DNA from: Clostridia bacterium
Lineage (GTDB): Bacteria > Bacillota > Clostridia > Christensenellales > Aristaeellaceae
DNA length: 64,000 nucleotides
Assembly: GCA_017469265.1 (NCBI GenBank)
Contig: JAFUGS010000003.1
Location: forward strand, 43,639 to 107,638
Direction: 5' to 3'
Shown here: positions 17,428 through 23,213 of the stretch, piece after piece
How positions within the stretch are numbered: position 1 is the first letter of the stretch
How the letters are laid out: every line of letters starts with the position of its first letter
Program-made: the position numbers and the translations under genes
Notes under the pieces: model-generated
The model's input: only the letters and a program-made list of their open reading frames with translations
Told to the model about the DNA's origin: nothing
The model's database searches: none

Positions 17428-17830
17428 CAGATACCCTGTCTTTATCTAAATGATTATGCCATGAAATCTGTCTCAGGTCAATTTTTTCCGGCTTTTTCTG
17501 TCTTCCTCAGCAGACAAAATCGCAGCAGCCAAAGCCGGCTGCCGCGGTAACGCAAAACGCTCATTAATCAACAAATTCCTTGCACTTGATGGGGCATGCT
17601 TCTCATAGACTCCAAAATCCCCGCTCTCATCCACAAAAATACTCAATTCCCGCATATCCGTAATCGCCTTCTATCCGTATAAAAATAGCGGGGAGTCCCC
17701 CCGCCAAGAAGGTTGGACCTGGGGCTTCCGACCAGCCCAAACCAGTATGATCAACTGGTTTTACCTAGTTAGAGTTTACACTGAAACGGCATATTAGTCA
17801 AGTGGTTTTTCGCATAATTCACTCAAAACA
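17428..17830. other. Relic-rich intergenic stretch
   Basis: About 400 bases with no intact gene. They contain the start of a DUF3800-like gene, a small hairpin (GCGGGGAGTCCCCCCGC near 17689-17705) and an AACCAG...CTGGTT stem followed by TT near 17735-17760. The right end joins the truncated alkD copy. Confidence 0.5.
17587..17655 (-). pseudogene. DUF3800-family N-terminal fragment
   Basis: The minus-strand frame begins MRELSIFVDESGDFGVYEKH, the conserved opening of DUF3800 proteins (an RNase H-like fold with the DESGD acidic motif). Homology fades after about 23 codons, and the remaining frame to 17473 is unrelated. It is the beginning of a gene whose rest has been lost. Confidence 0.55.
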
Positions 17831-20444: not shown

Positions 20445-21155
20445 CTACTTATTCTTCAGCCGTTTGTCGGTCTTTCTGGCCAGCCAGGTGCCGAAGGACT
20501 GAATCACCTGGGTGATCAGCACCAGCACGATCACCGCCAGATACAGCACCGCGTAGCGGTACCGCTGATAGCCGTAGGCCAGGGCCAGCTTGCCCAGGCC
20601 GCCGCCGCCCACCGCGCCGCTCATAGCCGTATAGCCCATGATGGTTGTAATGGCCAGGGTGAAATTGGTGATCAGGCTCGGCACGCTTTCCGGCAGCATC
20701 ACCCGGCAGATGACCTGCATCGGGGTGGCGCCCATGGCCTGGGCGGTCTCAATGATGTTGGGGTTCACTTCCCGCAGGCTGCTTTCCACCAGCCGCGCGA
20801 TGAAGGGGAAGGCGGCGATGGCCAGGGGAACGATGGAAGCCACCGTCCCCACGGAGGTACCCACGATCACCCGGGTCAGGGGGATGACCATCACCATCAG
20901 GATGATGAAGGGCACCGAACGCAGCAGGTTGATCAGCACGTTCAGGAAGCTCATGAGCGGGCCGGGCAGGGGGCGGATGCCCTTCTTCTCCCCGGTGACC
21001 AGGATGATGCCCAGGGGCAGCCCCAGCAGAATGGCGAAGAAGGTCGCCACCAGGGTGGAATAGACCGTTTCCCAGACCGCAAAGGGAAACTCGTTCAGCA
21101 GACAGGTCCAGGCTTCCTGCAGTCTTTCCGGGGTAAACGCGCTTGTGAAATTCAT
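20445..21155 (-). CDS. metI: Methionine ABC transporter permease
   Basis: A 236-residue inner-membrane permease with five or six helices. Family segments are ETVYSTLVATFFAILLGLPLG, LRSVPFIILMVMVIPLTR, the ATPase-coupling loop EVNPNIIETAQAMGATPMQV, and TIMGYTAMSGAVGGGGLG. It forms the MetNI translocator for methionine uptake. Its ATG overlaps the metN stop by ATGA, so it is translationally coupled to metN. Confidence 0.95.
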   Translation of the reverse strand: MNFTSAFTPERLQEAWTCLLNEFPFAVWETVYSTLVATFFAILLGLPLGIILVTGEKKGIRPLPGPLMSFLNVLINLLRSVPFIILMVMVIPLTRVIVGTSVGTVASIVPLAIAAFPFIARLVESSLREVNPNIIETAQAMGATPMQVICRVMLPESVPSLITNFTLAITTIMGYTAMSGAVGGGGLGKLALAYGYQRYRYAVLYLAVIVLVLITQVIQSFGTWLARKTDKRLKNK

Positions 21156-22180
21156 GCCCTGGCCCCCTCTCCGGTGTACTCAGCTTCCACCTGCACAATG
21201 ATGTCCGGAATCGCGTTCAGATAGGACACGATTTTCGCCATATCCTCCGGGGATCCGGGCACATCCAGCAGCATATAGCCATACGCGTTTCCTCCCACCG
21301 TCCGCGTGGACGCGCCGACGATGCTGGGCAGGATCCCGGTCTGGACTGCCATCTTCGCGATCAGGGGCTCCTGGGAGGGCTGTTTCCCGTTGAAAATGAT
21401 GCGGATCCGCTGCCCGCTGTCGGAGAGCAGGTTCTCGTTGTCCGCCATCTCCGGATAAATCAGGTTCCGGCTGGCCCGGGTCTTCGGGTTGGAGAACACC
21501 TCGCTGACTTCCCCTTCCTCCACCACTTCCCCGTTCTCCAGGATGGCGACCTTGCTGCAGATCTCCTGCACCACGCTCATCTGGTGGGTAATCACAATGA
21601 CCGTGATTTTCATTTTCCGGTTGATATCCCGGATCAGCTCCAGAATCGCGTGGGTGGTTTTGGGGTCCAGGGCCGAGGTGGCCTCGTCGCACAGCAGCAC
21701 CGAGGGCTCCGTCGCCAGGGCCCGGGCGATGGCGATCCGCTGCTGCTGGCCGCCGGACAGCTGCGCGGGATAGGAATTGGCCTTATCCGGCAGGTCCACC
21801 AGCTCCAGCAGCTCCCTGGCCTTCTTTTTCGCCTCCGCGTCCGGCACGCCGGCCAGCTTCAGCGGCAGCATGATGTTCTGCAGGCAGGTGCGCTGCATCA
21901 GCAGGTTGAAGCTCTGAAAAATCATGGTGACCTTCCGTCGCATCTCCCGCAGCTGCTTTTCCTTCAGGGTGCCCAGATCCTGCCCGTCCAGCAGCACCGT
22001 CCCCTCCGTGGGGCGCTCCAGCATGTTGATACAGCGGACCAGGGTGCTCTTCCCGGCGCCGCTCATGCCGATGATCCCGTAAATATCCCCATCATGGATC
22101 GTCAGATTGATATGTCGAAGCGCGTCCACCGGCCCGTCCAGGGTCGTAAAATGCTTCGACAGATTTCTCAGCTCGATCAT
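21152..22180 (-). CDS. metN: Methionine ABC transporter ATP-binding protein
   Basis: A 342-residue ATPase with Walker A GMSGAGKST, signature LSGGQQQR and Walker B VLLCDEATSALDP. It has a C-terminal NIL/ACT-like domain (from about residue 265) of the kind that binds methionine and mediates trans-inhibition in MetN. The KMKITVIVITHQMSVVQEIC segment is also MetN-like. GGAGGAG precedes ATG 22180. It lies 130 nt downstream of metQ with a terminator hairpin between, so metNI may be expressed by partial readthrough from the metQ promoter. Confidence 0.95.
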   Translation of the reverse strand: MIELRNLSKHFTTLDGPVDALRHINLTIHDGDIYGIIGMSGAGKSTLVRCINMLERPTEGTVLLDGQDLGTLKEKQLREMRRKVTMIFQSFNLLMQRTCLQNIMLPLKLAGVPDAEAKKKARELLELVDLPDKANSYPAQLSGGQQQRIAIARALATEPSVLLCDEATSALDPKTTHAILELIRDINRKMKITVIVITHQMSVVQEICSKVAILENGEVVEEGEVSEVFSNPKTRASRNLIYPEMADNENLLSDSGQRIRIIFNGKQPSQEPLIAKMAVQTGILPSIVGASTRTVGGNAYGYMLLDVPGSPEDMAKIVSYLNAIPDIIVQVEAEYTGEGARA

Positions 22181-22255: not shown

Positions 22256-22292
22256 AAAAAAAGGGGACCGGATGCATCCCATCCGGTCCTCC
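22256..22292 (-). terminator. Terminator/attenuator between metQ and metN
   Basis: On the minus strand, GGACCGGATG pairs with CATCCGGTCC and is followed by CC and seven T residues. It lies 20-50 nt past the metQ stop and upstream of metN. Confidence 0.8.
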
Positions 22293-22310: not shown

Positions 22311-23141
22311 TTACTGGATGCCCAGCAGGCTCAGATCAGCGCTCTTGCCCGCGTACAGGCCCATGGGCTCCACATGGACGCCCGCAATGGTGGTCAGGTT
22401 GGTGCCATTTTCCTCGTTGAAGTTCTCCTGATAGGGGGCGTGGGCGAAGAAGTTGGCGAAGGCGTCACCGGCGTCCACGATGGTGTTCGGGGTGATGTAA
22501 TCATCCACGACGGTGTACTCCAGGGTGATGTCCTTGGCCGCCAGGATTTCCTTGGCGATGTCCAGCACGTAGCTGTGGGGATCCAGGGTGCAGACCACCT
22601 TGATGGTGCTGCCCTTCAGGGCTTCGTAATCCACGTCGGGATCATAGCCGTCCGTGGGATTGTCGATGGTGGCGATGGCGCCGTTGGTGTAGGTAGAGAA
22701 GAAGTCCACCACCTGCTGGCTCAGCACCGCGGCGGCCAGGGCCTTGGCTTCAGGGGTGTCCGCGTTCTCGGCCTTGACGGAGACCACGTTCACATAGGGG
22801 CTCTCGCTGTTCTCAAACAGCAGGGCCTTGTCCAGGATGCCGGCCGCCAGCGCGTAGTTGCCGTTGATGATGCCGAAATCCACGTCCAGGAGCACGTTGG
22901 GCACCATGGCCGCTTCCACTTCCTGGAACTCGATGCCCAGGGGGTTTTCAATGATGTCCGCCTTGGTGGCGGTGATGCCCGCTTCCTCGTTCAGGGTGAT
23001 CACGCCGTTGGCCTGCAGCAGCAGCAGGGCACGGCCCTCGTTCGTCGCGTCATTGGGCAGCGCGATGGTCAGCGCCAGGGCGCTTCCGAGCCCGCACACC
23101 AGCAGAGCCACAACACACAGCAGAGCAGCAAACTTCTTCAT
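22311..23141 (-). CDS. metQ: MetQ/NlpA-type methionine-binding protein with permuted domain order
   Basis: 276 residues with an N-terminal signal segment (1-23). Family motifs are all present but in rotated order. First comes the usually C-terminal block: IALPNDATNEGRALLLL (26-42) and ESPYVN (113-118). Then, after a linker near 160-178, comes the usually N-terminal block: IKVVCTLDPHSYVLDIAKEI (180-199), NFFAHAPYQENFN (230-242) and GVHVEPMGLY (255-264). This looks like a circular permutation with new termini before PNDATNEGR. No canonical lipobox is seen (LLVCG has Val before Cys), so membrane attachment is uncertain. GGAGG precedes ATG 23141; 72 upstream open codons cross the promoter and are non-coding. 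Confidence 0.85.
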   Translation of the reverse strand: MKKFAALLCVVALLVCGLGSALALTIALPNDATNEGRALLLLQANGVITLNEEAGITATKADIIENPLGIEFQEVEAAMVPNVLLDVDFGIINGNYALAAGILDKALLFENSESPYVNVVSVKAENADTPEAKALAAAVLSQQVVDFFSTYTNGAIATIDNPTDGYDPDVDYEALKGSTIKVVCTLDPHSYVLDIAKEILAAKDITLEYTVVDDYITPNTIVDAGDAFANFFAHAPYQENFNEENGTNLTTIAGVHVEPMGLYAGKSADLSLLGIQ

Positions 23142-23184
23142 CTTTCTTTCCTCCTTATGCTTGACCGTTTCATGGGATAATGGC

Positions 23185-23213
23185 AGTATAGCCTCTTTCC
23201 GGCCGGATTGCAA
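23185..23213 (-). promoter_or_regulatory. Promoter for metQ
   Basis: On the minus strand, TTGCAA at 23213-23208, a 17-nt spacer, then TATACT at 23190-23185. No SAM-I or T-box leader was recognised between it and metQ. The leader is only about 37 nt. Confidence 0.75.

Follow-up and report, generated by a model that had tools for sequence, protein, structure and literature searches.

A metQ gene with circularly permuted halves beside metNI, and two classes of permuted MetQ with separate positions in trees

We analyzed a 64,000-nt stretch of DNA (the window) from the draft genome of a Clostridia bacterium of the family Aristaeellaceae. On its reverse strand lie a metQ-like gene, metN and metI, and the features of this locus are collected in Table 1. 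The preliminary description had placed an ordinary metNI beside the gene, and both neighbors do look ordinary: metN has ABC_tran and NIL domains, and each gene is fitted best by its own model. Both score below NCBI's strict cut-offs (MetN 356.6 of 499.7 bits, MetI 205.2 of 212). The gene had also been credited with a signal peptide, promoter and terminator of its own. The terminator held up as a hairpin with a T run, a consensus match, and its position between metQ and metN suggests that transcription of metQ may continue into metNI only in part. The promoters are consensus matches only, and the signal segment was judged by eye. A search of 14 loci for known riboswitches gave no match at Rfam gathering scores. 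Within the window, the only Rfam matches were one tRNA and one DUF3800-XI RNA, the latter at 17690-17739 (-) with 51.6 bits against a gathering score of 37.8. A perfect TTGACA-17-TATAAT promoter-like match was also seen at 20438-20410 (-), upstream of an ORF (20356-19841) that looks like greA.

Table 1. Features of the metQ locus, in coordinates of the window.
Feature	Position	Strand	Basis or remark
Permuted metQ (P0001), 276 aa	22311..23141	-	Translation, PF03180 profile, relatives
Export-signal-like segment, residues 1-24, without canonical lipobox	23070..23141	-	By eye and pattern count
Equivalent of the C-half of normal MetQ, residues 25-156	22674..23069	-	Profile, alignment, contact mapping
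Linker from old C terminus to old N terminus, residues 157-176, ATIDNPTDGYDPDVDYEALK	22614..22673	-	Alignment
Equivalent of the N-half of normal MetQ, residues 177-270	22332..22613	-	Profile, alignment, contact mapping
New C terminus, SLLGIQ and stop	22311..22331	-	Loop equals the SLDELKDG-like loop before strand ATIAIPND in normal MetQ
metN, ATPase with NIL domain	21152..22180	-	ABC_tran and NIL; best fit is the MetN model
metI, permease	20445..21155	-	Best fit is the MetI model
Terminator-like hairpin, stem 22289-22265, then TTTTTTT	22265..22289	-	Between metQ and metN
Shine-Dalgarno-like AAGGAGG, 8 nt before ATG	23150..23156	-	Read from sequence
Promoter-like match ahead of metQ, 9 of 12	23185..23213	-	Consensus match only
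Promoter-like match, 10 of 12	23376-23348	-	Consensus only; then terminator-like hairpin, stem from 23387

The named MetQ/NlpA motifs were found in the translation in the swapped order that had been reported for them: PNDATNEGRALLLL, ESPYVN, DPHSYVLDIAKEI, NFFAHAPYQENFN and VEPMGLY. The collinear order of this family, N-half and then C-half, is absent from the window protein, in which the C-half precedes the N-half. PF03180 was the sole Pfam family at E 0.001, and the whole protein scored 189.4 bits (E 7.1e-56) against a curated cut-off of 27. When the reading frame was searched with the profile, the first stretch (residues 25-155) matched profile positions 99-231 with 122.9 bits (E 1.2e-35) and the second matched positions 1-92 with 67.8 bits (E 9.7e-19), in inverted order and without an intervening stop. 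Aligned with a normal-order MetQ from Oscillibacter (L049), the two halves were 53% identical over 133 residues and 46% identical over 101 residues, again swapped. These scores and identities place the swapped order far beyond chance. NCBIfam MetQ models also matched the protein in two stretches, all under cut-off (TIGR00363 gave 114.7 bits of the required 228.85, and two other models were likewise missed); the normal-order L049 misses the NCBIfam MetQ/NlpA cut-offs too, with 207.9 bits. At the sequence level, the swapped PF03180 stretches and the L049 alignment support a MetQ/NlpA-family protein with circularly permuted halves, and a cut between GLYxxKS and the PND motif, both as proposed earlier.

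Relatives were sought with six short patterns in one genome per species, across 84,980 species, and the best 80 of 365 were kept. The C-half preceded the N-half within a single ORF in 42 of these 80 (L004-L045), and 38 had the normal order. The permuted rows assembled for comparison fell into class A, with 79 rows including the window gene, and class B, with 14 (L114-L118, L120-L125, L224 and two loci of family f31). Both classes are cut in the same loop. In each, the new N terminus lies directly before the strand that is ATIAIPND-like in normal MetQ, and the new C terminus lies in the SLDELKDG-like loop, class B extending a few residues further. Their linkers are different: that of class A mostly has 21-22 residues (range 19-23, apart from one row at 7) and a recurrent NPTDGYDxxVDYxAL pattern, and that of class B has 27-31 residues of dissimilar sequence with PDDGTNLSR-like motifs. 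One further class B-like permuted gene, L119 (G061:C151), is broken by an in-frame stop and looks like a decayed copy.

In MetQ of N. meningitidis (NmMetQ), R156, N213 and N238 hold the methionine amino and carboxyl groups, and the thioether is packed from the other lobe by Y81, F98, H100 and Y103; the N238A change weakens binding more than 10^5-fold (PMC6739813). We mapped these contacts onto the window protein by motif and spacing, not by residue-by-residue alignment, which gave R37, N93 (or N95) and N118 in the C-half as equivalents of R156, N213 and N238, and Y215, F232, H234 and Y237 in the N-half as equivalents of Y81, F98, H100 and Y103. With N93 taken, all seven contacts are kept in the window protein, in 79 of 79 class A rows, in 12 of 14 class B rows and in 80 of 100 normal rows; the alternative, position 95, is T or S in all 14 class B rows. 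Over the core of the protein, dN/dS was 0.01-0.26 in each of 14 pairs tried, a rough estimate because synonymous differences were high in several pairs. The permuted class is under purifying selection, which supports, at sequence level, that the gene, earlier judged functional in appearance, is kept by it. Linker dN/dS was low in most pairs, with values of 0.60 and 0.76 in two of the 14, over about 20 codons; one of these two was the window gene versus L013.

From its sequence, the window protein is most likely a working methionine-binding protein of MetNI. Not every NlpA-family protein binds methionine, and the permuted proteins, those of class B above all, could instead be MetQ-like proteins for another ligand, such as a different amino acid or a dipeptide. 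Position 95 does differ in class B, as do motifs adjoining the pocket (PDDGTNLSR, DTLIAPLTLYS). Set against this are the seven contacts, kept throughout class A and in all but two class B rows, and the NIL domain kept in the window's MetN, and we regard a non-methionine ligand as unlikely.

We then asked how often the permuted order arose. In a quick tree of 142 rows, with the halves restored to one order, the permuted rows fell into two groups, and more careful trees of 67 and 73 rows needed two changes of order. A single change was found in none of 200 bootstrap trees for the 67-row and 73-row sets, the 73-row bootstrap not being settled. One permuted clade was rejected by the AU test with p 0.00018 when three long rows were left out, and in a wider set with p 0.0038 (quick tree, four rows left out). 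Trees of the N-half and of the C-half each forced two permuted groups, the N-half tree from few columns, and a MetN tree of 55 rows kept the two classes (supports 100/99 and 100/100) apart, each nested among different operons of normal order. The trees disagree on which normal-order relative stands nearest to class A: it was a group of Oscillibacter rows in the 142-row tree (support 80) and a Gemmiger operon in the MetN tree, and the 67-row and 73-row trees fix none. Five records with class A genes (L004, L005, L007, L009 and L011) are titled Anaerolineaceae, Flexilinea or Chloroflexi; they sit among Clostridia records in the 142-row tree and are probably mislabelled bins.

Gene order was also compared. 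Of 85 permuted rows with metN nearby, 83 had the order Q..N, and of 84 normal rows 77 had N..Q, a count that omits 28 rows without a near metN and whose Fisher p of 5e-37 ignores relatedness. A strict tie between permutation and Q-N-I order was rejected: two f31 genomes (L230 and L231) have a class B permuted metQ downstream of metNI, as N-I-Q, and some normal genes are Q..N.

Classes A and B might still descend from one permuted ancestor, the normal-order members between them being reversions or tree error. The shared cut loop and the nearly universal Q-N-I order of permuted rows would suit such a history. The AU tests reject one clade, however, two positions are needed in the N-half, C-half and MetN trees, the linkers are unlike in length and sequence, and a reversion would itself be a second permutation. 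A single origin is thus disfavored and, in our judgment, quite improbable. Two independent permutations at the same loop are the simplest reading. We consider it likely that MetQ was permuted independently at least twice at this loop, and propose that this happened because tandem metQ-metQ pairs recur and the flytrap fold tolerates the cut.

Normal-order tandem metQ-metQ pairs were present in 11 fetched genomes of three families, six in f63, four in f212 and one in the window's own family. They follow metNI, or metI if the fetched stretch stops there. One stop codon only parts the frames in 7 of the 11 pairs, a form that our search favors because it reads through stops. In the 73-row tree, the L226 and L227 pairs and a single member of the L232 pair (row L174_2) joined class B in a larger clade (fork supports 93/99 and 90/83), with normal-order rows L097 and L104 closer to class B than these pairs (95/90) and the f212 pairs elsewhere. 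No fused MetQ-MetQ gene with more than two halves was seen among the ORFs of all fetched loci, where, with overlapping loci counted repeatedly, the halves were arranged N-C in 163, C-N in 137 and singly in 2. Duplication, fusion and trimming make up the classical model of circular permutation. Tandem duplication of metQ, in-frame fusion and trimming would be a plausible route here as well. The earlier suggestion of duplication followed by trimming thus gains from the tandem pairs among normal-order relatives of class B, although the fetched loci held no fused intermediate.

The window's draft genome harbors a second PF03180 gene, L001 (G000:C55), in normal order and with its own metNI. Its residues at the seven contacts are R,T,L,L,E,H,Y versus R,N,N,Y,F,H,Y, and as it differs at four of them, the permuted gene is the only full-site PF03180 protein found in this draft genome. 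L001, L152 and L153 represent an NlpA paralogue of normal order that is very divergent, has a metNI of its own and probably serves another substrate. The existence of such a paralogue and of its own metNI could mean that the permuted gene is a remnant heading for loss, replaced by the copy on C55. We find this very improbable, since the paralogue is the one that departs from the contact set, while the permuted gene keeps all seven and belongs to a class under purifying selection.

To see how far the permuted order extends, we turned to wider sets of genomes. Among 80 genomes of the window's family, PF03180 matches occurred in 72 and, by a hand count, swapped pairs in 25, at 32 loci that include the stop-interrupted L119; 18 of these 25 show no normal-order match, and many are drafts. 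The scans of the order, class and phylum scored at most six candidates per genome, so the counts from them are lower bounds. Full-length permuted matches were found in at least 19 of 396 genomes of the order, including 8 listed genomes of the window's genus, one in a single contig and two in two contigs, and in at least 19 of 391 genomes of the class, which include the window's own and represent ten further families. Domain order was confirmed in all 18 new class-level loci (L208-L225), of which one comes from a one-contig genome (G825) and one from a two-contig genome (G676). In the phylum, at least one further genome among 398 (G865) carried the permuted form. Overall, permuted ORFs occur in genomes that consist of one contig (G441, G825) or two contigs (G346, G248, G676). 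In all, the permuted order is inherited across at least 13 bacterial families, counting the window's family, f31 and f153. A possible fourteenth is f63, in which one of 100 genomes (G1218, L277) has a permuted Q-N-I operon; the other listed f63 matches are normal-order or tandem, and L277 may reflect transfer or contamination. A misassembly or local rearrangement in one metagenome bin, which a draft of 103 contigs and 91.75% completeness might suggest, is refuted, as the same order recurs in 42 of the 80 loci, from separate records, in 8 listed genomes of the same genus and in genomes of one or two contigs. Normal-order relatives with identical flanks, which the preliminary description had named as a sign of misassembly, were not encountered among the relatives; the closest ones, some from genomes of one or two contigs, are permuted and lie beside metNI.

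A simple lipobox pattern was matched by 26 of 93 permuted rows and 49 of 100 normal rows, and the window protein has none. Among the 26 permuted rows with a lipobox, 24 have the Cys 6-10 residues ahead of the first strand; the distance in normal rows ranges from 3 to 51. Of the permuted proteins inspected by eye, most have a plain-looking export signal and seven look as though they carry N-terminal membrane anchors. Loss of lipoprotein making as the cause of the missing lipobox was rejected, as Lgt was found in 78 of 80 genomes of the same family. In N. meningitidis, lipidated MetQ is required for the interaction with MetNI (PMC8416018), and by analogy the missing lipobox would count against work of the window protein with MetNI. 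Permuted rows include proteins that have a lipobox and others that lack one, so lipidation by itself does not account for the permutation. We infer that the permutation would relocate the membrane anchor: instead of the outer end of one lobe it would be attached at the hinge, by a short tether, and this may alter how permuted MetQ docks on MetNI. In the case of TpMglB-2, a permuted protein of another family, the authors raised the possibility that the topology is adapted to membrane tethering (PMC4990184).

Taken together, we hold it very probable that the window gene encodes a working methionine-binding protein of MetNI with a permuted chain, and that this form has at least two origins, most likely through duplication, fusion and trimming. 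The conserved linker of about 20 residues would connect the old C terminus to the old N terminus, and the new termini would open in the loop between the parts that carry the two contact sets (SLDELKDG / ATIAIPND). The same bilobed Venus-flytrap would form round the same pocket, one lobe clamping methionine by its amino and carboxyl groups (R37, N93 or N95, N118) and the other packing its thioether (Y215, F232, H234, Y237), and methionine would then be passed to MetNI. In class A and in class B alike, the permutation most likely began with a tandem duplication of metQ, after which in-frame fusion and trimming of the outer halves would have followed. If true, this is a repeatable evolutionary experiment of which the presumed start, a tandem pair, and the end, a permuted protein, are both alive, and nature's own test of how much re-cutting a protein chain can take without losing its function. 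The permuted genes also carry a warning for annotation: profile searches label them plainly as MetQ/NlpA, and collinear alignments and trees will mishandle them.

We found no paper on a permuted MetQ in the open-licence literature, nor a mention of one in the accessible text of PMC12667903 or PMC2861598. Among solved structures no chain had the permuted order, all 22 matches to the class A profile falling in two stretches. Within this literature, the lack of a described natural permutation of MetQ noted in the preliminary description held up; a naturally permuted solute-binding protein of another family is in print (PMC4990184). The wide distribution of the permutation and its apparent double origin go beyond that description. 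What is new is that permuted MetQ falls into two classes, which the MetQ trees, the trees of either half and the MetN tree all keep apart; that a solute-binding protein can be permuted was already known, and the surprise lies in the likely repeated origin.

Compared with MetQ/NlpA lipoproteins (PF03180; 4k3f, 4ib2, 1xs5, 3ir1, 4yah), the permuted proteins share both halves, the seven mapped contacts and metNI neighbors. They differ in the reversed order of the halves, in a linker between the old termini, of about 20 residues in class A and 27-31 in class B, and in new termini placed in the loop that separates the two contact sets; a lipobox is also missing from the window protein. TpMglB-2 (Tp0684) of Treponema pallidum, for which, with its Gram-positive relatives, a "Type Ic/Cluster Bc" was proposed, is reported to bind ligand and to change conformation, and has relatives in gut Gram-positives (PMC4990184). 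Like permuted MetQ, it serves an ABC importer as a solute-binding protein and occurs naturally in circularly permuted form, a likeness that for MetQ is seen at the level of sequence. Unlike MetQ, it belongs to a glucose-binding family of Type I fold, no repeated origin is reported in the accessible text of PMC4990184, and its permuted part is 13% identical to the E. coli MglB equivalent, compared with 46% and 53% for the halves of the window protein. Circular permutation within the bilobed binding-protein fold is also known at fold level from the glycine-betaine- and molybdate-binding proteins and CysB (CPSARST, PMC2395249), in proteins less than 24% identical, whereas the MetQ case lies within one family and among near relatives. 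Both precedents compare distant proteins, while permuted MetQ has close normal-order and tandem-duplicated relatives. With these relatives and a second class that shares the cut but has another linker, the fixation of a permutation becomes directly addressable, as do the questions of whether folding or transporter docking sets the cut site and what effect the moved anchor has.
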